A DNA stretch of 40,501 nt from Acidobacteriota bacterium (GTDB taxonomy: Bacteria; Actinomycetota; Acidimicrobiia; Acidimicrobiales; RAAP-2): assembly GCA_018970215.1 (NCBI GenBank), contig JAGWWX010000008.1:1-40501 (forward strand), written 5' to 3'. The notes below the pieces were generated by a model, which was not told where the DNA came from, did no database searches, and saw only the letters and a program-made list of their open reading frames with translations. Each line of letters starts with the position of its first letter. The stretch's first letter is position 1. Position numbers and translations under genes: made by a program. Of this stretch, positions 1,992 through 39,759 are shown piece by piece.

Positions 1992-2230
1992 AACGAAAAA
2001 CTCTGAGTTATCTGCTGCGGGTCGATCCCGTGCGATGTGATGGATTTGGGCATTGCGCGGAACTCGCGCCAGAGCTGATCACGCTCGACGAGTGGGGTTA
2101 CCCCATTCTCTCCGGCGAAACGTTCGCACGTTCGCACGTCGAACTCGTCCAGTCAGCGCGTCTGGCGGTTCGCGGCTGTCCGCGTGCGGCGCTCAGCCTG
2201 CAGAGTTTGTCGAGCTCAGAATCGAACTGA
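1988..2230 (+). CDS. Small [3Fe-4S]-type ferredoxin
   Basis: An 80-residue ferredoxin with C17-x5-C23 followed by A-x-x-A-P, and a distal C64-P. This three-cysteine layout is that of actinobacterial [3Fe-4S] ferredoxins, which often serve cytochromes P450; the central position of the C-x2-X-x2-C motif is F20, so no fourth cysteine ligand is present. The ATG at 1988 overlaps the upstream stop as ATGA; a GTG at 1982 is also possible. The last 38 bp overlap the tail of the convergent SGNH gene. As the fourth member of the overlapping redox set it most likely exchanges electrons with the NuoF-like protein. A P450 exists at 25011-26276 but is too far away to imply partnership. Confidence 0.8.
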   Translation: MKRKTLSYLLRVDPVRCDGFGHCAELAPELITLDEWGYPILSGETFARSHVELVQSARLAVRGCPRAALSLQSLSSSESN

Positions 2231-3149
2231 TCGTGGAGCTCACGAGAGGCTCGAGCCGTAGGGAGTATCGCTCGCTGATGTGCATGGTGTCGATGTACAC
2301 GAGTGTGTGATCGACAACAGCGGGACACCAACTTTCAGCACAGAACAGACGATCGACAGGCACAAATTTCACCTTGGCGAGCCGAGCCGCGCGCCAGTCA
2401 CGCGTAGCCGTGGCACCAAAGGTTTTCGGCGCCGTCTCTTCACGCCGAAAGGGAACGCCACACGTGTTGACGCGTGAAGGACGAGCAATGACGCACGCGG
2501 GGCCGGCGAGCGGCAGCAGGGGGCTCGTGCCCCACAGGACGTACTTCGACGATGGACTCTCCGCGCGCATCGCACTCATCGCGTCTGCGACCCCTTGAGC
2601 AAACGACGTGTCAAAAACTGAGCCATACGACGTGGTTCCACCGACGCCAATCACCATCGTGGGGTGAAGTGCCGCAATAGTTGCCGGGAGGCGACGATGA
2701 AACGCCTGGCAGGTTTCCGATTCCGAAGAGAGAAACGCCATCATGCACCCTTCGTACTGCAGCGACGCAATCCGCCAGTGGTGAATCTTGCCCGCGGCCC
2801 GAAGTGCAGGCGTCCAATTTCCAACGGCCGAATCGCCAAATATCACGATCGTGGTCGACGAACTGAGGTCACCCCCGAGACACGGCTTGGGATGCGTCAC
2901 CGTCGAGGTGTCGCCCATTCTGAAACACTTCTCCGACACCGCGTATCGCAGACCGGAGTACATCCACGCATCACTCGAGTTCATCTGCGCGGGGTTTGGA
3001 ACTACCGGCGACACTCGCGTGACATTGCGGGACGCCGCGATCTGTTGCTGCAAGGTGGTCAAGGTGAGCGATGGCGCGGCCTGGGCGGCACCGATGCCCA
3101 CCAGTACGAAAATCGTCACAATGGAGGGTACGACTCGACTCAACCTCAT
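2193..3149 (-). CDS. Secreted SGNH-domain protein (paralogue 1)
   Basis: A 318-residue protein that starts with a signal peptide (MRLSRVV then a hydrophobic run ending AAQAAPS). The SGNH block I motif is FGDSAVGNW with the nucleophile-type serine at S107, and the C-terminal D287-x-x-H290 supplies the usual Asp/His pair. It resembles the SGNH domain found at the C terminus of OafA-type acyltransferases, but here stands alone and is exported. A paralogue with the same plan lies at 38750-39685. In this copy the residue after GDS is alanine, whereas the paralogue has the common histidine. The ATG at 3149 is chosen because it begins a clean signal peptide and has a TAGGCT hexamer 8 bp upstream. 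The substrate is unknown; cell-surface glycan or ester chemistry is a guess. Confidence 0.7.
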   Translation of the reverse strand: MRLSRVVPSIVTIFVLVGIGAAQAAPSLTLTTLQQQIAASRNVTRVSPVVPNPAQMNSSDAWMYSGLRYAVSEKCFRMGDTSTVTHPKPCLGGDLSSSTTIVIFGDSAVGNWTPALRAAGKIHHWRIASLQYEGCMMAFLSSESETCQAFHRRLPATIAALHPTMVIGVGGTTSYGSVFDTSFAQGVADAMSAMRAESPSSKYVLWGTSPLLPLAGPACVIARPSRVNTCGVPFRREETAPKTFGATATRDWRAARLAKVKFVPVDRLFCAESWCPAVVDHTLVYIDTMHISERYSLRLEPLVSSTISSILSSTNSAG

Positions 3150-3157
3150 CGCTCGAG

Positions 3158-3163
3158 AGCCTA
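3158..3163 (-). promoter_or_regulatory. Candidate -10 hexamer of a leaderless SGNH transcript
   Basis: TAGGCT on the minus strand ends 8 bp before the ATG at 3149, and no Shine-Dalgarno is visible. This matches the TANNNT pattern seen at other lone genes in the window. Confidence 0.45.
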
Positions 3164-3237
3164 CCGAAAGGTCGCCCGCATTCGGAAAGTATGCAACGTC
3201 ACTTCGAGAGAACTGCCACTGTGTGTACTGCCACCTT

Positions 3238-3588
3238 CTAGAGCTGTTGTAACTCAATGCGATTACCGAAAGGGTCACGCAGGTAGCAGCGAGTCACGCC
3301 CTCGAGCGCAGTGTCAAAGAGCGTCGCGAATCCCGCGTGAGTAGCGGTGGCAATGATCTCATCAAAGTTCTCCACCACGAGGCAGATGTGCGCCTTGTCG
3401 GAAGCCCGGAATGCGCTGTCGACGCCCAAATGAAGTGCGACTCCCTCTTTCTCGTACCAGCGACCACCGCGGTGTAGGAGGGCCGGTGGCTTGGGAACCA
3501 CGAAGAACCCCAGAACATCACGGTAAAAACTGTCGGCCTGTGCCTCACCGCCCGCCGGCATTGCGAGCTGCACGTGATCGATACGCAT
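3238..3588 (-). CDS. VOC family (glyoxalase-like) protein
   Basis: A 116-residue protein with one vicinal-oxygen-chelate fold unit: an N-terminal MRIDHVQLAMP strand, FYRDVLGF, a central HICLVVE strand and a C-terminal RCYLRDPFGNRIEL. These are typical of the glyoxalase/bleomycin-resistance/dioxygenase superfamily, whose members bind a divalent metal with His and Glu residues; H5, the His of HICLVV and the terminal E are candidates. The ATG at 3588 has GGTGG upstream; a GTG at 3594 would add two residues. It is divergent from bS22. The substrate cannot be told from the sequence. Confidence 0.75.
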   Translation of the reverse strand: MRIDHVQLAMPAGGEAQADSFYRDVLGFFVVPKPPALLHRGGRWYEKEGVALHLGVDSAFRASDKAHICLVVENFDEIIATATHAGFATLFDTALEGVTRCYLRDPFGNRIELQQL

Positions 3589-15362: not shown

Positions 15363-15959
15363 ATGCTCAAGATAATCCTCATCTCACTCGCGCTGCAGTT
15401 CCTTTTGGAGCTGCCCGACAAGACCATGATCGCCATGATCTACATGGGAACACGAGCACACCCGTTTCCCGTCTTTGTGGGTGGGGCGTTGGCCTTCATC
15501 GCACACATGGGAATTGCCGTAGGGGCTGGGTCGCTCCTCACTCTGCTACCGCACACGCCGAAGCAAATCGTCATCGCCACACTCTTTTTTGTGGGGGCGG
15601 CGTACCTTCTCCTCAAATCTGAAAAGGAAGAGGAGGAGGAAGGTGAGCGCGAGGCTCAAGCGGAACACCCGGGTAAGCGTTTCCGCGAAGCGTTGACGGC
15701 CTTTTCGGTCATCTTTGTGGGCGAGTTCGGTGACCTGACGCAGATTCAAGCGGCGAACCTTACGGTGAAGTACCACAACGCCTTGGCGGTATTTATTGGT
15801 TCATCAATTGCGCTGACGTTGATTTCGTTTATGGGTGCTTTCGGTGGTCGATATCTCGTGCGCGTCTTGCCTCTCGCAACGATCCGAAAGATTGGCGGTG
15901 TCGTCTTCGCGGGAATGGGAATCTGGACCGTCGTTCAGATCTTTCAGCACCACGCGTGA
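15363..15959 (+). CDS. TMEM165/GDT1 family cation transporter
   Basis: A 198-residue protein with two homologous three-helix halves, each carrying the family motif: ELPDKTM near residues 16-22 and EFGDLTQ near 120-126. The usual consensus is E-x-G-D-K/R-S/T, so the first copy has P for G and the second has L for K. The halves are joined by an acidic loop rich in Glu (KSEKEEEEEGERE). Family members export or exchange Mn2+ or Ca2+ with protons; MneA-like manganese export is one possibility. It lies 9 bp after the aminopeptidase and overlaps the next gene as GTGA. Confidence 0.87.
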   Translation: MLKIILISLALQFLLELPDKTMIAMIYMGTRAHPFPVFVGGALAFIAHMGIAVGAGSLLTLLPHTPKQIVIATLFFVGAAYLLLKSEKEEEEEGEREAQAEHPGKRFREALTAFSVIFVGEFGDLTQIQAANLTVKYHNALAVFIGSSIALTLISFMGAFGGRYLVRVLPLATIRKIGGVVFAGMGIWTVVQIFQHHA

Positions 15960-16588
15960 CGCGGCGTCTCGAACTTCTTCAATTAGCCCGCCAGGTGAAG
16001 GGCTTCATGCCCGATGACGAAGGTGAGGCCCTCTTTTCCGCGGCCCGCGAGGCGGGCGAACGGCGCCCCGAGGGCACGTGGCTCGAAGTGGGGGCGTACT
16101 GTGGCAAGTCGGCTATCTATCTTGGGGCCGCCGCCGAGGAGACGCATTGCGTCTTTTACTCACTTGATCATCACCACGGCAGCGAAGAGAACCAGTCGGG
16201 GTGGGAGCATCACGACACGTCCCTCATCGATCCCGCGGACGGCCGTTTGAATACTCTGCCTACGTGGCAGCGCAGTGTGGCGGACGCCGGTCTCGAGAAC
16301 ACCGTCATCGGACTCGTCGGACCCTCCGTGGTCATCGCGCAACACTTTCCGGTACCACTCGATCTTCTCTTTATCGATGGAGGGCACGGTGCCGAGGTCG
16401 CCTGGGCCGACTATCACGCCTGGACTCCCAAGGTTGTCAGCGGCGGCACATTGCTGATTCACGACGTGTTTCCCAATCCCGCCGACGGGGGTCGACCTCC
16501 CTACGAGATCTACTGCGCCGCGCGAGAGAGTGGTCGCTTTATCGATGAACGGGCCGTTGGCAGCCTGCGAGTACTTCGCGCCGTCTAA
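15956..16588 (+). CDS. Class I SAM-dependent methyltransferase
   Basis: A 210-residue methyltransferase-24-type protein. Motif I is WLEVGAYCGKSAIYLG near residues 42-57, followed by a histidine-rich SLDHHHGSEENQSGWEHHD, the post-motif LDLLFIDGGHGAEVAWADYHAW and GGTLLIHDVFPNP. The D-x-H residues after motif I and the IDGGH aspartate are typical of metal-assisted O-methyltransferases in this family. The GTG start overlaps the upstream GDT1-type stop. It converges on, and shares a CTAA stop overlap with, the toroid gene of the GT4 cluster, and such methyltransferases may belong to the same pathway (inference). Confidence 0.82.
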   Translation: MTRRLELLQLARQVKGFMPDDEGEALFSAAREAGERRPEGTWLEVGAYCGKSAIYLGAAAEETHCVFYSLDHHHGSEENQSGWEHHDTSLIDPADGRLNTLPTWQRSVADAGLENTVIGLVGPSVVIAQHFPVPLDLLFIDGGHGAEVAWADYHAWTPKVVSGGTLLIHDVFPNPADGGRPPYEIYCAARESGRFIDERAVGSLRVLRAV

Positions 16589-17682
16589 CGAGAGGCGCAC
16601 TCACCTTCGAGACCGAGCGGACAGCCCGGTTCGGCTAAATCAATCACGGTGGGCAGCAGGCCCTCGCGAAATAGTCCCGCAGCTGGCGACCACGAAAGCA
16701 GGGCGTCGGCCGCCAAGATAACGGCGGCGCCGGTATACGACGTCGTCTCACGATCGGGGAACGTGACCGATTCGGGATACGCAATGCCGGTCCAGTAGGA
16801 GCCGTCATCGCGCCGATGACGTCGCGTCAACGTCATGAGGTCCAGTGCGCGATCGGTCCATCCGATCGCATCGAGGGCGATCACGCACTCGGCCGTTTCA
16901 GCGGCGGTTATCCAGTCGTTCGTCGACACACAGCGCACCCCGTGACCTTCCATCACGTGTCGCTCCCAGCCGTCGCTCATCCGAGCTACGGCCGCATCGT
17001 GTGACAACGCGCCCGCGAGAACGGGGTAGTACCAGTCCATGGCGAACTCGTTCTTGGGAGCAAAGGCCCCTCGGTGGTGAGCAATAGCGTGAGCCAAACG
17101 ACCGGCGGCGAGTTCCCACGACGGTCGTGCCAAGTCGAGCCGCTCCGCTAACGCCACGCCGCACCGCAATGAATGCAAGATTGACGATGATCCCGTCAAC
17201 AGTGCGTACCCTTCGGGTCGACCCATCGCGTCGAGTGACCAGCGAATCGTTCCGTCGGGGAGTTGCCAACGAAGAACAAACTCCACCGCGCGTTCTACCG
17301 ACGTGAACATCTCACGAGCAAATGCTGTGTCGTCGGAGACTAAGAGGTAGTGGTAGATACCAGTGGCGAGATAGGCGCACACATTGGTGTCCAGTCGCAA
17401 ATCTCGCGCGAGATCTCCGACGTAGTAGTTAAACCAGCTGCCATCGCCGAGTTGGATGTTCGCCAAGTATCGATAGGCCGCTCGGGCCTCGTCATGACGC
17501 CCCGTCACCGTGAGGGCCATGGCCGCTTCCACGTGATTCCAGGGGTCGCAATGCCCACCAGGCCACCACGGAATCTGACCGCTCGCAACCTGCAGATTGG
17601 TGAGATAGCGCGCCGTATCGTCAATCTCTGACGCCGATAAGACATCGGGGATGCCGGGCATCAAGGAGACGCGTCGAGTCAC
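16585..17682 (-). CDS. Alpha/alpha-toroid protein (prenyltransferase/squalene-cyclase-like fold)
   Basis: A 365-residue soluble protein built of repeated helix pairs with recurrent motifs such as YLTNLQVASGQIPWWPG, YLANIQLGDGSWFNYYVGD, FVLRWQLPDGTIRWSLD and RRHRRDDGSYWTGIA. The Q-x-x-x-G-x-x-x-W/Y spacing is the QW-like repeat of alpha6-alpha6 toroids. Databases tend to call these prenyltransferases, but no DDxD or other terpene-synthase acid motif is visible, and a glycan-binding or glycosidase-like role is equally possible. The GTG start overlaps the upstream methyltransferase stop as GTGA. It is the last gene of the GT4-methyltransferase-toroid operon. Confidence 0.7.
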   Translation of the reverse strand: MTRRVSLMPGIPDVLSASEIDDTARYLTNLQVASGQIPWWPGGHCDPWNHVEAAMALTVTGRHDEARAAYRYLANIQLGDGSWFNYYVGDLARDLRLDTNVCAYLATGIYHYLLVSDDTAFAREMFTSVERAVEFVLRWQLPDGTIRWSLDAMGRPEGYALLTGSSSILHSLRCGVALAERLDLARPSWELAAGRLAHAIAHHRGAFAPKNEFAMDWYYPVLAGALSHDAAVARMSDGWERHVMEGHGVRCVSTNDWITAAETAECVIALDAIGWTDRALDLMTLTRRHRRDDGSYWTGIAYPESVTFPDRETTSYTGAAVILAADALLSWSPAAGLFREGLLPTVIDLAEPGCPLGLEGECASR

Positions 17683-18401
17683 GCCGTCACCGGTTTCCGC
17701 AAGTAGATAATGAGCGACTTACCCATCAGGGGCGACAAGATTTTCTCGGCGTAACGAGTCGTCTTAGGTCCCTTCATGATGTCCCAGACCAAGAGACGGT
17801 GATAGGCCTTCACGGCCCAGTGCGAATCGTTCGTCGTCCCGACGAGGCACTTCAACCACCAGTAGGGACTGTGGAGACCGTGCGCGTAGTGGTGCGTTGT
17901 GACCTCAAGCCCCGTGGACGTCAATCGATTCTGAATGACACGACGGCGATAGATACGCACGTGGCCACCGGGCACCATGTGATACTCATCCGAGAGCGCC
18001 CAGTTGATGAGCTCGGGACCAAAGCGGGGAATCGTAATGGCCATGGTGCCACCGGGTCGAAGGACTCGGGCCAACTCTCGCATCGCACCGAGATCATCGG
18101 GAATGTGCTCCAGCACTTCCGAGCAGAGCACTCGATCGAAGGTGCCGTCGGCAAACGGGAGATGGAGTGCGTCGCCGCGAACTACGCCGACCTGCGTCGT
18201 CTCAGGTGACAGTTCGCCCGCTTCGACCATCGCCGCGAACGTGCCCGCGACGCCGTTCACTTCGTCTTCACCGGCATCCAGAGCAATGACGTGAGCGCCC
18301 CGGCGAGCTGCCTCGTAAGCGTGTCGACCGAAACCACACCCCAGGTCGAGAATGCGGTCACCGGCGCGGAGGCCCAGAATGTCGTAGTTCGCCGTCAGCA
18401 T
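17679..18401 (-). CDS. SAM-dependent methyltransferase (methyltransferase-11 type)
   Basis: A 240-residue class I methyltransferase with motif I ILDLGCGFGRHAYEAARRG, the acidic VIALDAGEDEV, a GDALHLPFADGTFDRVLCSEVLEHI motif II region and VLRPGGTMAITIPRFGPE. This is typical of small-molecule or glycan O/C-methyltransferases. Its ATG overlaps the TAA of the upstream glycosyltransferase as TAATG, and its own stop overlaps the toroid start, so three genes are coupled. The substrate is probably the product of the glycosyltransferase (inference). Confidence 0.88.
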   Translation of the reverse strand: MLTANYDILGLRAGDRILDLGCGFGRHAYEAARRGAHVIALDAGEDEVNGVAGTFAAMVEAGELSPETTQVGVVRGDALHLPFADGTFDRVLCSEVLEHIPDDLGAMRELARVLRPGGTMAITIPRFGPELINWALSDEYHMVPGGHVRIYRRRVIQNRLTSTGLEVTTHHYAHGLHSPYWWLKCLVGTTNDSHWAVKAYHRLLVWDIMKGPKTTRYAEKILSPLMGKSLIIYLRKPVTA

Positions 18402-19774
18402 TAGTCGAACTCCATGGATTCAGGAAGTTGCTCTCCCCGCAGAATGGCGTCATAACACGCGGCCGTTCCTCGGGCCGTGACCTCCCACGTGAAGCGCTGC
18501 ATCACACGTTCACGTCCCGCGCGGCCGAGGCGTTGCTGCAGCGTGACGTCGTCGAGCAGTGTGCGAATCGCGCCCACCAGAGCGTCGGGGTTATTGGGCT
18601 CCACGAGAAGTCCCGTCTCACCGCTCTGACCCACGACCTCGGGCAGTGCTCCGCCGGTCGTGGCGACGACCGGGACTCCACAACTCATTGCTTCGATTGC
18701 CGGAAGTGAAAACCCTTCGTAGAGGCTGGGGACGACGGCAACTTCTGCTTCGCCGTAGAGGCGGGCGAGTTCTTCATCCGAAACGCCCGAAATGGTGTGC
18801 ACGATGTCCGTCAGTCCGAGACGTTCCATCGTGGTGGCAACGCGACCTCCGGGACGTGGTTTACCAATGACGACGAGATCGATGTCACGTTCGGTGCGAA
18901 GTTTCGCGACCGCCTCGAGAAGTGGCACGAGACCCTTCATGGGGACATCCGATGAAGAGGTCACCATGAGGCGACCCTTCTTTTTCTCAACGTCAGGGTA
19001 GGGACGAAACACCGTGTGGTCGACACCAACCGGAACGACCGTCAAGCGATCCAGGGGCACTTTCATCTGCTTGTTGATATCAATTTTCGAATTTCCTGAC
19101 ACCGTCAGAACGAACGGGAGCCGCTTCGCCACTCGCACTTGCATGCGCAAAAACCCAAACCATCGACGAGTCGTAAAGCGCCGCCACGCATTCTCTGCGT
19201 GGTCGAGAGCGATCGTGCGGTCCACCGTGATCGGGTGGTGGAGCGTTTCGAGCAAGGGCCAGCCGTCCTTTTCGACCATGTCCAAGATGCCGTTACCGAG
19301 GCACTGATTGTCGTGCACGATATCGAAGTCATCTCGTCGGTTTTTCAGTACGCGACGGATCCGTCGCGCGAACGCCAAGGGTTCACCAAACCCAGCCGAC
19401 ATCATGACGAGGAACTCTTGCCAATCGGCCCAGGAAGTGAACTCGCGGCGCGCCGGGACCCGAAATGGATCGGGGTCGCGGTAGAGATCCATTCCTCGAA
19501 TCGGAGTAAATCCAACGCCGTCGTCTAATTCGGGCCAGGGCGGACCGGCGAAAACTTCCACCGAGTGGCCTAAAGCGACGAGCTCGCGGGTGAGGTGGCG
19601 TGTGTACACCCCTTGACCGCCGCACCGTGGATTGCCCCGATAGATCAAAAAAGCGACGCGGTACTTCCCCGGTTCCGCCGGACGGGCCGGCACGTGGTCG
19701 GGGATGACGATGGCGCGTGACCGCGCCCAGCTCTCCCGAGTTTCGCGAATGGTTTGACGGGGTGAGCGAGGCAC
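18401..19774 (-). CDS. Family 4 glycosyltransferase (GT-B fold)
   Basis: A 457-residue retaining glycosyltransferase. The N-terminal acceptor domain begins VAFLIYRGNPRCGGQGVYTR with the GGxG loop, and the C-terminal donor domain has the EGFSLPAIE (E-x7-E) motif and CGVPVVATTGGALPEVVG. An SKIDINKQ...VPVGVDHTVFRP segment marks the domain link. No signal or membrane helix is seen, so it acts in the cytoplasm on a nucleotide sugar and probably a lipid- or protein-linked acceptor. The GTG at 19774 has GGAG 4 bp upstream. It leads an operon with a methyltransferase and the toroid protein, a gene set I recall from other Actinobacteria without a known product. Confidence 0.88.
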   Translation of the reverse strand: MPRSPRQTIRETRESWARSRAIVIPDHVPARPAEPGKYRVAFLIYRGNPRCGGQGVYTRHLTRELVALGHSVEVFAGPPWPELDDGVGFTPIRGMDLYRDPDPFRVPARREFTSWADWQEFLVMMSAGFGEPLAFARRIRRVLKNRRDDFDIVHDNQCLGNGILDMVEKDGWPLLETLHHPITVDRTIALDHAENAWRRFTTRRWFGFLRMQVRVAKRLPFVLTVSGNSKIDINKQMKVPLDRLTVVPVGVDHTVFRPYPDVEKKKGRLMVTSSSDVPMKGLVPLLEAVAKLRTERDIDLVVIGKPRPGGRVATTMERLGLTDIVHTISGVSDEELARLYGEAEVAVVPSLYEGFSLPAIEAMSCGVPVVATTGGALPEVVGQSGETGLLVEPNNPDALVGAIRTLLDDVTLQQRLGRAGRERVMQRFTWEVTARGTAACYDAILRGEQLPESMEFD

Positions 19775-19872: not shown

Positions 19873-21102
19873 ATGGACCTGAACTACCCCGCAGAAGCCG
19901 AATCATTCCGCGCCGAAATCCGCTCCTGGCTGGAAGCAAACCTCCCAAAGGGTTGGTTTGACGATGGATTCAAAATGAGCGACGACGAGCGTGCCGCCTT
20001 TAATGCCACCTGGACCGAGAAACTCTTCGAGGGTGGGTGGATCTGCGCCGGATGGCCGAAGGAGTACGGCGGCAAAGGACTCAACCTCCTCGAGCAGGTC
20101 GTGCTGAATGAGGAGTTCGCCCGGGCCCAGGCGCCGCTCCGCGCCGACTTCTTCGGTGACACCTTGGTCGGCCCCACCATTTTGCAGTGGGGTACGGAGG
20201 AGCAAAAAAAGGAGTTCATCCCCGGAATCTTGCAGGGCAAGATTGCGTGGTGCCAAGGCTTTAGTGAGCCCAACTCCGGTTCGGACCTCGCCAGCCTCAA
20301 GACCGAAGCGGTTTTAGACGGTGACGAGTGGGTCATCAATGGTCAAAAAGTGTGGACGACGCAGGCGCAGGTTGCGGACTACGTGTTCCTGCTGTGCCGG
20401 ACGGACAAGGAAGCACCGCAGCACGCGGGTATCTCCTACCTCCTCGTTCCCATGCAGCAGCCGGGTGTCGAAGTGCGCCCCATCGTGCAGCCCGACGGAA
20501 CGGCCGAGTTCAACGAAGTCTTCTTCACGAATGCTCGTTGCCCGAAGGACAACGTGGTCGGTGGTGTCAATAATGGTTGGAAGGTGGCGATGACGACCCT
20601 CGGGTTCGAACGAGGCTCAAGCGCCACCACCGGATACCGTCGCTTCCTGCGTGAGTGGGACGCCGTCGTGAAGATCGCTCAAAAGAACGGGAAGAGCAAG
20701 AACGCCCTCACTCGTGACGCCCTCATCAAGGCCTGGAGCAAGGTCAAGATCATGGAGGTCAACGGCTATCGCAGCTTGACCGACGCAATCTACGGAACGC
20801 ACAACGCCGCGCTCTTGGGAGCCTGCAACAAGATGTTCTGGTCGGAGTACCACAAGGGCTTTATGGAGCTCGCACTGGACATTCAAGGAATGGACGCACA
20901 GATCCTGACCGGCAAGGGCGAGTCGGAAGGAGTCCTCCCGGGCAATCGCCGTGGCCGTGCGGACTACCCCGTCTCCGACCTACAGGCCTCATTCTTCTTC
21001 TCGCGTTCCGAGACGATTTGGGGTGGCACCTCACAAATTCAGCGCAACATCGTTTCGGAGCGGGCCCTGGGCCTGCCCAAGGAGCCCAAGGCTGCCAAGT
21101 AG
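19873..21102 (+). CDS. Acyl-CoA dehydrogenase
   Basis: A 409-residue FAD enzyme that introduces the alpha-beta double bond into an acyl-CoA. It has WCQGFSEPNSGSDLASLKT (FAD-binding loop), GQKVWTTQAQVADYVFLLCRTD, LGFERGSSATTGYRR and the C-terminal IWGGTSQIQRNIVSERALGLP, all standard family motifs. The ending resembles mycobacterial FadE proteins that work as mixed tetramers on branched or steroid side chains, but no partner subunit is next to it. It is a single gene followed by a strong terminator. Substrate is not assignable. Confidence 0.92.
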   Translation: MDLNYPAEAESFRAEIRSWLEANLPKGWFDDGFKMSDDERAAFNATWTEKLFEGGWICAGWPKEYGGKGLNLLEQVVLNEEFARAQAPLRADFFGDTLVGPTILQWGTEEQKKEFIPGILQGKIAWCQGFSEPNSGSDLASLKTEAVLDGDEWVINGQKVWTTQAQVADYVFLLCRTDKEAPQHAGISYLLVPMQQPGVEVRPIVQPDGTAEFNEVFFTNARCPKDNVVGGVNNGWKVAMTTLGFERGSSATTGYRRFLREWDAVVKIAQKNGKSKNALTRDALIKAWSKVKIMEVNGYRSLTDAIYGTHNAALLGACNKMFWSEYHKGFMELALDIQGMDAQILTGKGESEGVLPGNRRGRADYPVSDLQASFFFSRSETIWGGTSQIQRNIVSERALGLPKEPKAAK

Positions 21103-21307: not shown

Positions 21308-22795
21308 CTACAGGTTCTGCTCAAATTCTTCGAGAACGACTTCACGCTCTTCACGAGTTGGCATCTTGAAGTACGGCGCCTTCTTTACGAACCAGTAGTA
21401 CGACATGGGGAACAGACCTAGAACCATGAGTCCGATACCGACCAGCTTGGCCGTGGGGTCGAGAGTGGGCACCTGATTTATCAAGACGAAGATCATGAAA
21501 CTCGACCCCAGTCCGGGCCACAGTCCCATGAAGAGGAAGTTTTTCACCGACTTGAAGAGGTGCTTGCGATACAAAATCACCACAGCGAGCCCGGCGAGTC
21601 CATAGTAAAAGCAGATCTGAATTCCGATTGCTGCGTAACCGTCGCTCAAAATTTTTGAGATGCTGCCGATGTAGGAACTCCCAATAAACATGACGAGTGA
21701 GAGAACCGCAACGACCATGGTGGCGAAAAAGGGACTCTTGCGCGTTGGGTGCGTAGTGCCGAGTGCTGCGGGGAGGGTTCTATCTCTACCCATAACAAAT
21801 AGCGTGCGCGTGACCTGAATCAAAGTGGTCTCGAGGGTGGCCACGGTCGACAGTAGTACTGCGACGACAATGAGTTTACCTAGTGTTCCCGGCGCAATGT
21901 TCTGACCGAGAACCTGGAGAATGTTTGCGGCGTTGTCTTCGTTCGTCATCTGTTCTGTTGACAGCGCCATATTGGAGCCGAGCGTAAACAACTCGAACAG
22001 CAAGAACACGATAAGCGCTCCGAGCAGACCACCAATCCCAGAGGTTTTGTGTGCGTCCTCCGTCTCTTCATTCAAGTTCGCGGTCACGTCCCAACCCCAG
22101 TAGTAGAACGCGGCGAGTAGCGCACCTGACGTAAAAGTGGCCATCTGGAAACCACTCCCCGATCCATCGTTAAAAACCGACGGCAAGAACCAGCTCCACG
22201 TGAAGTTCACATAGTGGTGGGCGTGGACAAAGGCAAGAATCGCAAAGACAAGCAATAGAGCGACTTCGATCACACTCATAATGATCTGGACTCGCACCGT
22301 CACGGTCACACCGGCTGCGACCGCCGCCACCATGAGAAGGAAGAAGATTGCTCCAAAAAACGTCACCCACCCCGTCGAACTCGCCGCAGAGTCACTGAAG
22401 AGGCTCAGCATGGACGAACCTGCGGGGAAAGTCGCAATGACCATAAAAATCAGCGCAGAAATAAATACGGCCCAACCACTCAGCCAACCCAGCGCGGGGT
22501 GAATCGCGCGACGTACCCACGAGTATGAGGCGCCCGCACTCTGATCATCCCGACTCAGGTAGTTGAAGGCGAACACGATACCGAACATGAAAAAGCCGAC
22601 ATATAGCAACGCCGCTGGCCCACCAAATGCCACGGCACCGAACATTGATGTGGTGGTCGCTGCGATGGAATAGGCGGGGGCCGAACCGGCAACTCCCATT
22701 ACCACGCTGTCAAAGAGTCCGAGCACACCGCCTCGGAGCCGGTGATCGTGCTGTTGCTCGAGTGCAGCTTCATATTGCGAATTGGGGTTGCTCAT
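21308..22795 (-). CDS. APC superfamily amino-acid permease
   Basis: A 495-residue inner-membrane transporter with about 12-14 hydrophobic segments. The first helix carries the APC consensus GLFDSVVMGVAGSAPAYSI, followed by AFGGPAALLYVGF and a YSWVRRAIHPALGWLSGWAV segment in which the conserved aromatic and glycine residues occur. Family members take up amino acids or polyamines with protons. The ATG at 22795 is preferred because AGGAGGTG lies 4 bp upstream; an ATG at 22819 would add eight residues ahead of the ribosome site. It lies downstream of the MarR-MFS pair on the same strand, with 82 bp between. Confidence 0.85.
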   Translation of the reverse strand: MSNPNSQYEAALEQQHDHRLRGGVLGLFDSVVMGVAGSAPAYSIAATTTSMFGAVAFGGPAALLYVGFFMFGIVFAFNYLSRDDQSAGASYSWVRRAIHPALGWLSGWAVFISALIFMVIATFPAGSSMLSLFSDSAASSTGWVTFFGAIFFLLMVAAVAAGVTVTVRVQIIMSVIEVALLLVFAILAFVHAHHYVNFTWSWFLPSVFNDGSGSGFQMATFTSGALLAAFYYWGWDVTANLNEETEDAHKTSGIGGLLGALIVFLLFELFTLGSNMALSTEQMTNEDNAANILQVLGQNIAPGTLGKLIVVAVLLSTVATLETTLIQVTRTLFVMGRDRTLPAALGTTHPTRKSPFFATMVVAVLSLVMFIGSSYIGSISKILSDGYAAIGIQICFYYGLAGLAVVILYRKHLFKSVKNFLFMGLWPGLGSSFMIFVLINQVPTLDPTAKLVGIGLMVLGLFPMSYYWFVKKAPYFKMPTREEREVVLEEFEQNL

Positions 22796-22828
22796 GGCAC
22801 CTCCTAGAAGGCTGTTCAATTACCTCAA

Positions 22829-22877: not shown

Positions 22878-24125
22878 TCAATTGCTCTCTGCGGTAACTG
22901 ATTCAGCGGAGTGCTGGCGGTAGGAGCGAATAAGCGCCGCACCCGTAGCCAGCGTAAGAACTGCACCAACTGCGAGACCAACACGAGGGTTAGTCAGATT
23001 CACGAGTCCCCCAATGATTGGCGCGCCAATCGGTGTTGAACCAAGGAACGCGGTCGCGTGCAATGACATGACTCGGCCCCGCATCTCTTCAGTCGAATTA
23101 AGTTGCAGCGTTGAATTGGCCGTTGACACAAAGGCAATGGAAAACCCGCCCGTAGGCACCAGCAAGAGTGCGGCAACCGTCAAGTTGGGAGCGAGTGCAA
23201 CACCGGTCATAGAGACTCCAAAGCAGACGGCCAAGGTGGCGAGTAAACCCAGTGACGGACGAGCGCGATAGGCGATGACAAATCCTCCAACGATTGCCCC
23301 GAGTCCCATGGCCCCCATGAGCAGCCCGTAGTGTCCAGCTTCGGGATCACTAAAAGTCCGTTGGACGAGCAGCGGCAGAGTCACGGTGAAGTTGAACGCA
23401 AAGGTTCCTACGACGGCGACGGAGAGTAATGCGCGTCGTAAGACGGGCGTACTCCAGGCGTAGTGCAGTCCCAGGCGCAACTGGCCCTTCCCGCGTTGAA
23501 CTGTGCGAATTGGCGTCAAGTCAGACTGCTTCATGAGCGACAGCGCCAGGAGTACGGCGACGTACGATGCGGCGTTTACGAAGAAGCAGGCAGCCGTTCC
23601 CCAGACCGCCAGGATGAAGGTGGCAATTGCCGGACCGATCAGACGTCCCGTATTCATCAACGACGAGTTCAAGCTCACGGCATTGGCAATTAAGTCGCGT
23701 CCGACCATTTCTTGAATGAACGCCTGTCGAGCGGGAACGTCGAACATGTTGGACACACCGAGCGCCAGTGAGAGGAGAAACACCTGCCAGACGGCCGCGT
23801 GACCAGTGGCAACCAACACGCCGAGCACGACTGCGAAGATTCCCGCGCTCGACTGAGTGACATAGAGGACGTGCCGCTTATCTGAACGGTCGACCACGAG
23901 CCCGCCATAGGTACCCAGCAACAGCATGGGGAGATACTGAAGGGCCACGGAGATTCCAAGGTAGAAACCGTTCTTGTCCGTCAACTGGAGTATGAGCCAA
24001 CCTTGAGCGACTGACTGCATCCACGTGCCAGCGTTGGAGATGATCTGACCGATGTAGTACTTGCGATAATTCGGTACCGCGAGTGCGGCAAAAGTGCGTC
24101 CCGCAATCTTGCGTGCGGCGCTCAT
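22878..24125 (-). CDS. MFS transporter (MFS_3/EntS-like exporter)
   Basis: A 415-residue membrane protein with about 12 transmembrane segments. Family cues are FAALAVPNYRKYYIGQIISNAGTWMQ at the N terminus, DRSDKR in the loop between helices 2 and 3, VPARQAFIQEMV and the N-S-S-L-M-N-T-G-R-L-I-G-P segment, typical of the EntS/enterobactin-exporter-like MFS_3 group, which export siderophores or drugs. Its ATG overlaps the MarR stop as ATGA, so it is co-translated with its probable repressor. Its substrate is unknown; the MarR partner suggests a small aromatic or toxic compound. Confidence 0.88.
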   Translation of the reverse strand: MSAARKIAGRTFAALAVPNYRKYYIGQIISNAGTWMQSVAQGWLILQLTDKNGFYLGISVALQYLPMLLLGTYGGLVVDRSDKRHVLYVTQSSAGIFAVVLGVLVATGHAAVWQVFLLSLALGVSNMFDVPARQAFIQEMVGRDLIANAVSLNSSLMNTGRLIGPAIATFILAVWGTAACFFVNAASYVAVLLALSLMKQSDLTPIRTVQRGKGQLRLGLHYAWSTPVLRRALLSVAVVGTFAFNFTVTLPLLVQRTFSDPEAGHYGLLMGAMGLGAIVGGFVIAYRARPSLGLLATLAVCFGVSMTGVALAPNLTVAALLLVPTGGFSIAFVSTANSTLQLNSTEEMRGRVMSLHATAFLGSTPIGAPIIGGLVNLTNPRVGLAVGAVLTLATGAALIRSYRQHSAESVTAESN

Positions 24126-29084: not shown

Positions 29085-30764
29085 TCATAGAAGTGGATCA
29101 ACGGGTGTTGAGGGGCGAAACTCCATGGGAGTGACGTAGGTGTTGTCGGAGTAGTGCGAAAACCACGACACCCGCCACCCAGCCTGCTCCAAGGCACCGC
29201 TCGTAAAGTTCGGCATCGGAACACCCGGCTGGTTCGCGGGGAGGCCGTACGGCGACCAGACGCCCACGGTGTACCCGACGTACCAGACGCGGCGATAGTT
29301 CTTGGCGAGAGTCGCGAGTTGGGGATCGTTGCCCGTCCACGCCACCGGCACAATGACTCGGGGGTCATCTGAGACCACTCGAAAGCCCTGCGGCCACTGA
29401 TCGGGACCGCCCACTTCAAGGTGCCACGGCGTCACACCGTCGTAGGCCCAGGTATAGGTCAAAAATGCCGGGACCACAATCACATCACCCGGACGCCACT
29501 GAGACTCCACATACGTCAAGAGCGACTTCACCTCGACCGTGGGATAGCGGGCCGGACGCGACCAGAGTTGCTGTGTCGGTAGAGCAACGGCGAGAAGGAC
29601 AAGAAGGACGACCCCAATCCGGGCAACTCGGGGCGACTCCAGACGACGTCGTACCACCCGCTCCAGCACCAGTGTGCCCACTAGCACCACGGCGGGATAC
29701 ATCACGAGGTCCGTACGACCATCACCAAATGGAAAAGCACCAACTACCGCCGCGAGAAAACTCGCCGGAATGATGGCGCCTACCACCCACCATCGACGTC
29801 GATCCACTAGTGGTTCGTGGCGCCACCAACGTGTGAAAAGGACGACGACGACAACACTCGCCGCCGCTAAGAAATACACGAGGCCGTAGTGGTGGCTATG
29901 ACCTGGGTCGTATTTCAGCCGGTAGGCAATATTGAAGAAGGAATGCGGGAAGCCGGCGAAGATTGAGATGGCATTATGCGCAAACTGGTGCCACGAGTCG
30001 TAGCCAAACATGTAGCCACGTCGAACCCAGTTATCAGAGAGAGACGGGGGCTTGCTGAGCACATACGGCACCACGACGATGCTGGCAAGAACACCGGCCG
30101 GCAGCGCATACGCGAGTCGTTGACGCAAAACAACGCGGTCCCGTCGCGCCTGCGAGATGATGACGAGCCAGATTGTTCCGATGGTCGTCAGGACACCAAA
30201 ACTCGAGAAGGTCGCCAACACGCTCACGACGGCGAGCCACCACAGCGCCTTGCGACTCTGGTGGCGAAGGGCGGACTCCGCACAGAGATACGCGATGAGA
30301 GCACACACGACTTCAAGGGTGTAGGGCTTGACGCGCGTGGAATACGTCGTCATCATCGGATTCACCGCAAAGATCGACGCACCCAGAGAGGCGGCCCAGG
30401 CACTCGCTCCGAATCGGCGAAGGACCGGAAACATCACGACCGTTCCCACCACACCAAAGATGTATGACGGGAGCTGGGCCCAATACGTGGCGTCGGGGCC
30501 GACCATAATCCACCATCGTTCCGCCAACGTCCACAAGGGCGTCGAAACCGACATCGAGAGAGCATGACTGAGAGATTCACGAGCCGGTAGAGCCGCCCAC
30601 GCATCATCGAACCACAGCGAATGCGACGTAAACCCACCCAGCCGGCGCACGGCGGCGGCGATGACGACGACCGCAAAAAAGAGATGAGGTCCGTGTCGGC
30701 GTAGTAAACCGCGCACGGGGATCAGCTTCGTTACCGAGGGTCGATGGGCGTCACGACGCCACAT
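29085..30764 (-). CDS. GT-C type membrane glycosyltransferase-like protein
   Basis: A 559-residue protein with about nine to eleven transmembrane segments and a large C-terminal extracytoplasmic part from about residue 400. The first loop has SLWFDDAWAALPARE, the position where GT-C enzymes place their catalytic acid, and VKPYTLEVVCALIAYLC resembles the dolichyl/polyprenyl-phosphate mannosyltransferase region. It likely transfers a sugar from a polyprenyl-phosphate donor outside the membrane. No nearby gene names its acceptor. The start is uncertain: ATG 30764 overlaps the amidase by 34 bp, and a GTG at 30716 is also possible. Confidence 0.7.
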   Translation of the reverse strand: MWRRDAHRPSVTKLIPVRGLLRRHGPHLFFAVVVIAAAVRRLGGFTSHSLWFDDAWAALPARESLSHALSMSVSTPLWTLAERWWIMVGPDATYWAQLPSYIFGVVGTVVMFPVLRRFGASAWAASLGASIFAVNPMMTTYSTRVKPYTLEVVCALIAYLCAESALRHQSRKALWWLAVVSVLATFSSFGVLTTIGTIWLVIISQARRDRVVLRQRLAYALPAGVLASIVVVPYVLSKPPSLSDNWVRRGYMFGYDSWHQFAHNAISIFAGFPHSFFNIAYRLKYDPGHSHHYGLVYFLAAASVVVVVLFTRWWRHEPLVDRRRWWVVGAIIPASFLAAVVGAFPFGDGRTDLVMYPAVVLVGTLVLERVVRRRLESPRVARIGVVLLVLLAVALPTQQLWSRPARYPTVEVKSLLTYVESQWRPGDVIVVPAFLTYTWAYDGVTPWHLEVGGPDQWPQGFRVVSDDPRVIVPVAWTGNDPQLATLAKNYRRVWYVGYTVGVWSPYGLPANQPGVPMPNFTSGALEQAGWRVSWFSHYSDNTYVTPMEFRPSTPVDPLL

Positions 30765-38589: not shown

Positions 38590-38749
38590 TCGCTCGTTCT
38601 AACAGAGCGAAAACACTCCGTGACGAGTAAAACACGCTATTCCACGCAGTTTTTCCCAATATTTCACCTTCCGATTACCTAACGGCCAAAAGTCCCAAAT
38701 TGGTCGGGCTGCCGGCCGTTGCCCGGTGACCTCGTGCAGACTGTCATGT

Positions 38750-39685
38750 ATGAGGTTTCACCGAATTGTGCCCGTGTCAGCGTTACTGATTGCCCTACTT
38801 CCCGTGGCTAGCGGAGCAACCGGCAAGATCGCACCGGCGAAAACCGATGCCGAGGTGGCGACCAAAGTCACAGCAGCTCTCGCTCTCAAGGCCCTGCCCA
38901 GCACGGTGACGCCCACTTTGAGCAACGTCGCCAACGACTCATTTCTTTCCTACGACCCGGAGTGTGCGAGTTACCACGGCTCGTGCACGTTCGGTAATTC
39001 CAAGTCAACGAAAGTGTTGCGACTCTTCGGTGACTCCCACGCCCAGCAGTGGCTGCCGGCGATCGTTGACGCCTTTGGCGCAACCTACAAAATTCAAGTC
39101 AGCGCTCTCTACGAGTGCACCCCGGCGTCGATTTCTAACTACAGCCCACTCACTCACTCCGTTGATCCGCAGTGTGCTGCGTGGAGAACCCAAACAATTA
39201 GCTCTATCGTGTCGTCCAAGCCCGCCATGGTGCTCGTCGCCGAGTCCACGTACTCACTTTTCGCCGAAGATCAATCCCCTCTCACTGACAGCGAACTGTC
39301 GAACGGTTTGAAAACAACCTTGCTGGCGCTCAAAGCGAGCAAAGCCAAGATTGCCGTCATCGGCGACAACCCCGCCTTTGCGGTGCACCCCACTTCGTGC
39401 ATCTCGGCGAACCAAACGAACCTCACGAACTGCGTGAAATCCCCCGCGACCCAGACGCCGCCGAACGTCATACTCACAGCCGGCGAGAAATCAGGTGCGC
39501 TCGCGGCAGGTGTGGGTTACGTCCCCACCGCCTCGTGGTTTTGTAGTGGCACAGGGAGTGCCCAGCGATGCCCCATGGTGATCAACGGAATGCTGCCCTA
39601 CTTTGACTGGAGCCACATCACCGTCACGTACGCGCACTATCTCGCCACGGTCCTGAAAACCGCCGTGACGAAGTACGCAAAATAA
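38750..39685 (+). CDS. Secreted SGNH-domain protein (paralogue 2)
   Basis: A 311-residue exported protein, signal MRFHRIVPVSALLIALLPVASGA. Block I is RLFGDSHAQQW with S96 and H97, and the C-terminal D286-x-x-H289 is in YFDWSHITVTYAHYL. The layout matches the protein at 2193-3149: signal peptide, two cysteine-bearing loops before and after block I, and a D-x-x-H-x-T/S ending. This copy has the typical GDSHA of OafA-associated SGNH domains. The ATG at 38750 begins the signal; an ATG at 38746 is in another frame. It ends 1 bp from the tRNA gene. Confidence 0.72.
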   Translation: MRFHRIVPVSALLIALLPVASGATGKIAPAKTDAEVATKVTAALALKALPSTVTPTLSNVANDSFLSYDPECASYHGSCTFGNSKSTKVLRLFGDSHAQQWLPAIVDAFGATYKIQVSALYECTPASISNYSPLTHSVDPQCAAWRTQTISSIVSSKPAMVLVAESTYSLFAEDQSPLTDSELSNGLKTTLLALKASKAKIAVIGDNPAFAVHPTSCISANQTNLTNCVKSPATQTPPNVILTAGEKSGALAAGVGYVPTASWFCSGTGSAQRCPMVINGMLPYFDWSHITVTYAHYLATVLKTAVTKYAK

Positions 39686-39686
39686 G

Positions 39687-39759
39687 CGCCCCTGGCAGGA
39701 CTTGAACCTGCAACCTAGTTCTTAGGAGGAACTTGCGCTACCAGTTGCGCCACAGGAGC
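39687..39759 (-). tRNA. tRNA-Arg (anticodon CCU)
   Basis: A complete 73-base cloverleaf: acceptor GCTCCTG/CAGGGGC with one G-U pair, D stem GCGC/GCGC, anticodon stem AGTTC/GAACT with loop CTCCTAA (CCU anticodon, AGG codon), T arm GCAGG-TTCAAGT-CCTGC and discriminator G. The 3' CCA is not encoded. It lies 23 bp after the partial propeller gene. Confidence 0.93.

Follow-up and report, generated by a model that had tools for sequence, protein, structure and literature searches.

This report concerns four adjacent genes in a 40,501-nt stretch of DNA (hereafter "the window") from contig JAGWWX010000008.1 of an Acidimicrobiales bacterium. We conclude that they very probably (at a probability of about 0.93) represent this organism's meT1-mmpH-pmeT3-manT cluster for methylmannose polysaccharide (MMP). 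The genes and one neighbor are laid out as follows; L- and G-numbers used below denote loci and genomes, respectively.

18401-19774, minus strand: manT, a predicted family 4 glycosyltransferase (GT4), namely an alpha-(1,4)-mannosyltransferase that would elongate the chain from GDP-mannose (match to PDB entry 7qsg)
17679-18401, minus strand: pmeT3, a putative 3-O-methyltransferase (Methyltransf_11 domain, position and homology)
16585-17682, minus strand: mmpH, a predicted MMP alpha-(1,4)-endomannosidase with an (alpha/alpha)6 barrel, or toroid (match to PDB entry 7qsj and a structural model)
15956-16588, plus strand: meT1, a predicted 1-O-methyltransferase gene, convergent on mmpH (match to PDB entry 6g7d)
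15363-15959, plus strand: a gene for a GDT1-family cation transporter (PF01169, E 1e-31), outside the core cluster

The genes are tightly packed. The manT stop and the pmeT3 start have 1 nt in common, the pmeT3 stop and the mmpH start have 4 nt in common, and the TAA of meT1 on the plus strand overlaps the TAG of mmpH on the minus strand by 4 nt (16585-16588); the end of the GDT1-family gene likewise overlaps the meT1 start by 4 nt. The first-pass annotation, which described a glycosyltransferase, a methyltransferase and a toroid protein coupled on the minus strand and a second methyltransferase converging on them with overlapping stops, was thus accurate as to layout. Pfam assigns GT4, Methyltransf_11 and Methyltransf_24 families to the core proteins, with only a sub-cut-off squalene-hopene cyclase match for the toroid. 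The same gene order recurs in related genomes at approximately 37-88% protein identity, which argues that the arrangement is not a product of chance. An Rfam scan of the window returned only a tRNA, at 39687-39759.

A four-gene MMP cluster has been reported from nontuberculous mycobacteria in a published account (PMC9883506). There, MmpH cleaves MMP to give oligomers, which ManT then lengthens, O-1 methylation is performed by MeT1, and the presumed 3-O-methyltransferase is termed pMeT3. The same source mentions MmpH homologs in Corynebacterium, Rhodococcus, Streptomyces and Nocardia, an approximately five-fold increase of ManT activity with MgCl2, and a mutant phenotype of slower growth at 15 °C.

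In the PDB, the toroid is strongly matched by a single entry, MmpH (7qsj; E 1.8e-95, residues 6-347 of 365). An AlphaFold2 model built from 13 sequences (mean predicted local distance difference test score, 89.4) superimposes on 7qsj with a Z of 55.5 and a root-mean-square deviation of 1.2 Å over 346 residues, the next row standing at Z 36.8. Other (alpha/alpha)6-barrel glycoside hydrolases, such as the GH15 glucodextranase 1ug9, share the overall barrel but reach a Z of 36.8 or less, at 9-17% identity in the rows shown; a comparison of MmpH with GH125 is made in PMC9883506. That the toroid might instead be a terpene cyclase or prenyltransferase is suggested by a match to Pfam SQHop_cyclase_N and by two NCBIfam cyclase models (E 0.003 and 0.009). 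However, the Pfam match scores 19.1 bits against a curated cut-off of 26.2, too low for membership in the squalene-hopene cyclases; the other structural rows shown are glycoside hydrolases, phosphorylases and sugar epimerases; and the PDB match together with the fit of the model to MmpH speak against such an enzyme, leaving the idea scarcely credible. The earlier doubt over the name "prenyltransferase" was therefore well placed. The toroid does match a characterized enzyme, but the pathway of that enzyme is of the kind that the annotation had guessed rather than an unrelated one.

The GT4 protein matches 7qsg (E 1.1e-125, residues 36-444), an entry that bears the generic depositor name of D-inositol 3-phosphate glycosyltransferase. 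We take 7qsg to be the ManT structure reported in PMC9883506 on two grounds: the residue numbers of that account fall on the expected letters once an offset of 26 is applied, and over a 100-residue stretch the chain shares 75-78% identity with ManT from two loci, L066 and L067. These two loci (family f63) are taken to be mycobacterial, given that their MmpH is 82-85% identical to the M. hassiacum MmpH chain 7qsj over 231 residues. The convergent methyltransferase matches 6g7d (E 1e-58, residues 7-208), deposited as "Methyltransferase domain protein", which we presume to be MeT1; in support, 134 of its residues align at 82-87% identity with the proteins encoded at the meT1 position in L066 and L067. 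The nearest solved chains for the middle methyltransferase are general class I methyltransferases (the best being 3bus, E 2e-18). It is 52-53% identical to its counterpart at the same place in the two mycobacterial loci, and its position and homology make it the putative pMeT3.

For ManT, MmpH and MeT1 we have thus computed homology along nearly the whole protein, and to this are added the fold of MmpH, the presence of catalytic residues and a conserved linkage; that the proteins have the same activities and yield the same product in this organism would follow by analogy. The description of the locus as "uncharacterised" cannot be maintained, since those three proteins have solved relatives along nearly their full lengths and the pathway is the subject of PMC9883506. 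The suggestion of a methylated glycan is supported, while that of a glycolipid product finds no support.

The window shares with the mycobacterial cluster (M. hassiacum and M. smegmatis, PMC9883506) the four genes, their order, the convergent meT1 (also seen in L066 and L067), the main catalytic residues and the MmpH fold. It differs in that its proteins are only 46-53% identical to those of L066 and L067, in that its genus has the GDT1-family gene directly upstream of meT1, in that three residues of the MmpH cleft are replaced and in the lack of any detected type I fatty acid synthase in its host. Three probable Streptomyces loci (L063-L065, family f58) also have manT-pmeT3-mmpH in the same order, but in L063 and L065 the convergent meT1 is separated from them by about 4 kb, and in the genome of L064 it is about 9 kb off, just beyond the stretch fetched.

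The linkage of the four genes extends well beyond the genus. All four are present in 26 of 29 genus loci, the remainder (L024, L026 and L031) being cut short. Among loci L032-L051, two of which belong to the genus of the window, 17 of 20 have the full set (L034 and L045 are without meT1, and L043 without manT), as do 17 of 20 among L052-L071. There, L054 is without manT, and the fetched stretches of L064 and L069 are without meT1, which is present 9-10 kb away in both genomes. In the best 80 of 594 related loci, manT accompanies mmpH in 78, pmeT3 in 79 and meT1 in 67; meT1 is downstream and convergent in 65 of these 67 and upstream on the same strand in two. Ten of the 13 loci without it have less than 2 kb left on that side, and L124, L127 and L150 have 7 kb. 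Elsewhere, meT1 lies on the strand of mmpH in L046, L060 and L062. In a crude comparison of open frames across 49 sequences (the window and 48 loci), the largest groups are the four core genes, with 29-36 of 49 members each. The idea of an additional core gene was dropped; two smaller groups, with 20 and 15 loci, are exemplified by antisense open frames. The expectation of a similar set in other Actinobacteria, and of the four genes occurring together elsewhere, agrees with these data.

A sample of 61 close relatives, including the window's own genome, yielded mmpH in 56: the genome itself, 34 of 36 members of its genus and 21 of 24 from other families of the order. Several of these genes are fragments at contig edges and seven rows hold one stop; in three of the seven (L006, L008 and L016) the frames are open over 358-359 codons, up to a stop at the frame end. 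The names of the relatives' isolates point to lakes, bogs and soils. A broader sample covered 396 genomes of the phylum with a completeness of at least 90%, with membership of the order (Acidimicrobiales) judged from named relatives and the split between order and class read from a listing of near-to-far kin. Here mmpH is present in 93 genomes. The order accounts for 46 of these (out of 47 sampled), the remainder of its class for one (out of 13) and other parts of the phylum for 46 (out of 336). At a threshold of E 1e-10, meT1 was detected in 96 genomes; it accompanies mmpH in 92 of the 93 carriers of the latter. The exception, G214, lies outside the class and has a weak mmpH match (E 1.6e-5, 30% identity). 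Four genomes have meT1 without mmpH; three of these are weak matches (44-61 bits), and G104 is at a contig edge. Where both genes occur, they are on the same contig within 12 kb in 86 genomes, on different contigs in four and farther apart in two.

The best 80 of the 594 loci comprise 45 labeled as Acidimicrobiia or a group within it, 31 with broader actinobacterial labels and four labeled as another phylum; we take these four, without proof, to be mislabeled records. Spread on plasmids was considered and rejected: one record of 72,556 was found, from Nonomuraea, and at 11.85 Mb it is chromosome-sized. When the four proteins were joined and a tree was built by a quick method (44 rows, 13 of 41 inner branches open), the rows of the order mostly grouped together, with two changes against a shuffled mean of 14.3; one of its members, L049, was placed among rows from elsewhere, and L070 formed a long branch. 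This tree gives no sign of a recent transfer into the lineage, although it does not prove ancestry. Divergent MmpH proteins, 39-42% identical to that of the window, occur in G136 and G018 (L070, from 7729 on; L051, 8165-9169) with the four-gene order intact. Among the titles and beginnings of abstracts listed in our search of the open-licence literature, none concerned MMP in Acidimicrobiales.

The catalytic residues were compared in an alignment of 150 MmpH rows (the window and 149 loci, some probably from the same or very near species, with L001 and L002 left out as copies of the window). Asp47 is kept in all 150 rows and Glu262 in all 149 rows not gapped, the window being among them in both cases. 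Position 50, by contrast, is Asn in 138 rows and Asp in 12. The account in PMC9883506 calls the active site highly conserved and leaves open whether Asp47 or Asp50 is the acid, with a figure legend that leans to Asp47. Because Asp47 is invariant and position 50 is mostly Asn, our alignment favors Asp47 as the probable catalytic acid. As for ManT, the window protein retains the equivalents of Gly15, His142, Lys240, Asp293, Glu313, Phe315 and Glu321, with Val in place of Leu291. Lys240 is kept in all of the 144 rows. Counting only rows without a gap at the position concerned, Glu313 is present in 143 of 143, Glu321 in 141 of 143 and His142 in 115 of 115 (29 rows are gapped at His142, many loci being cut), whereas Leu291 and Asp293 vary.

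Several observations weigh against the assignment. First, three residues of the published active-site cleft are changed in the MmpH of the window: Asp50 to Asn, Phe102 to Val and Trp315 to Tyr. Given this, and given that Asp50Ala nearly abolishes the activity of the M. hassiacum enzyme (PMC9883506), the precise polymer or the way in which it is cut may be different here. Second, the activity of pMeT3 is only putative in that account, even for mycobacteria. Third, regarding the supply of GDP-mannose, the one family tried, the beta-helix domain of ManC (PF22640), had no match in the organism's own genome; the control matched 9 of 14 genomes, Corynebacterium glutamicum not among them. Finally, mmpH is missing from two of the 24 order-level genomes, G043 and G045, which are of good completeness.

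The cleft replacements invite a second interpretation, in which the same enzyme kit makes a different polymer within the class, altered in methylation, length or acylation and read by the altered cleft of MmpH. The replacements are indeed characteristic of the class: Asn50 is found in 132 of 133 class rows, Val102 in 125 of 133 and Tyr315 in 129 of 131 not gapped (the other two have Trp). Further, an acetylated MMP from Streptomyces griseus is reported in section 6 of PMC9883506. Outside the class, Trp315 is retained in 15 of 16 rows not gapped, with Tyr in one. However, of the 17 rows from outside the class, six also have Asn at position 50, and five depart from Phe at position 102 (the other 12 keep it). 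The gene set, the main catalytic residues and the fold are all unchanged. We consider a variant product unlikely. Since positions 50 and 102 vary outside the class as well, the three cleft residues are not counted as defining for membership of the MMP cluster.

If the MMP assignment is correct, the pathway may be pictured as follows. By transfer from M. hassiacum, MmpH would break a mature chain of alpha-(1,4)-linked 3-O-methylmannose down to oligomers with defined lengths, and ManT would extend these with mannose from GDP-mannose. pMeT3 would most likely methylate O-3 of the newly added units, and MeT1 would cap O-1 of fragments with a free reducing end. Through such cutting, extension, methylation and capping, the chain would be copied in a partly conservative cycle.

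In another alternative, the genes would build or trim a surface glycan or glycolipid rather than a cytoplasmic polysaccharide; the first-pass annotation had proposed a methylated glycan or glycolipid. GT4 enzymes and methyltransferases are common in surface-glycan clusters. The matches to the MMP enzymes are specific, however, and none of the 28 window proteins scanned with Pfam belongs to a glycan flippase or polymerase family, the transporter-like open reading frames at 21308-22819 and 22878-24125 lying outside that scan. We judge a surface role to be highly improbable.

The genes flanking the MMP cluster appear to be associates at the family level. In 27 of 27 genus loci the GDT1-family gene immediately precedes meT1, but it does so in only 4 of 19 other order loci with room for it (three of the four from the same family); among the best 80 loci it is there in 50 of 63 named loci with room, and in none of 15 outside the class. 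It is a family-level associate and not part of the core cluster. A gene for an acyl-CoA dehydrogenase (19873-21102) and manT are divergent and lie 98 nt apart. Such a gene is upstream of manT in 37 of 63 named loci with room, within 300 nt in 29, but in 0 of 18 order- or class-level loci and 0 of 15 outside the class; these counts make it, too, a family-level neighbor. Farther off, at opposite ends of the window, are two proteins that carry SGNH domains of a type found fused to AT3 acyltransferases (2193-3278 and 38726-39685); none of the 28 scanned proteins has an AT3 domain. A 559-residue open reading frame (29085-30764) between an AMP-binding enzyme and an amidase has no Pfam match at 1e-5.

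The occurrence of the MMP genes was also compared with that of type I fatty acid synthase. Since the Pfam family PF18314 proved weak as a probe (no match in the organism's own genome with a silent control, and matches in 15 of 396 genomes), an 800-residue piece of a mycobacterial enzyme was used instead, at a cut-off of E 1e-20. This query matched 23 of the 396 genomes, of which 17 are among the 93 carriers of mmpH and six are not. It detected no type I synthase in the host, nor in 75 of the other 92 carriers; within the order, it matched one of 46 carriers, G432, in which the enzyme is a giant frame of 3012 residues (L153:5549-14584). A role tied to that synthase thus cannot be general and, as far as gene content indicates, the MMP genes do not depend on it. 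The probable Streptomyces genomes fit the same pattern; as the MMP of S. griseus was already known, our result extends what could be suspected.

The organism's own genome also encodes a glucosyl-3-phosphoglycerate synthase (L159:8167-8955; 290 bits against an NCBIfam cut-off of 262), which in mycobacteria is an early enzyme of the methylglucose lipopolysaccharide route. Seven open reading frames around it were scanned; six are housekeeping-like, and one has no match.

These results describe a known system in a new lineage, and the mechanism itself is not new. What is new is its range. That spread, and the fact that the genes do not depend on a type I fatty acid synthase, are the points worth noting. 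A bolder proposal, which we advance tentatively and think improbable as a whole, is that MMP-type polysaccharides are a core and probably ancestral feature of Acidimicrobiales, kept in genomes of about 1.5 Mb independently of a type I synthase, and that the rebuilt MmpH cleft (Asn50, mostly Val102, and Tyr315) goes with a polymer or a cutting register unlike the mycobacterial one.

The presence of this kit in a small-genomed actinobacterium of another branch of the phylum suggests a wider occurrence of the sugar than one would expect from its history in mycobacteria. With the cluster in nearly all sampled genomes of the order, and a type I synthase in only one of 46 carriers, its basic job is to be sought beyond that enzyme. 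The order and its relatives also offer many natural variants of the enzymes, and these are of use even now in deciding between Asp47, which is invariant, and Asp50, which is not, as the catalytic acid of MmpH.

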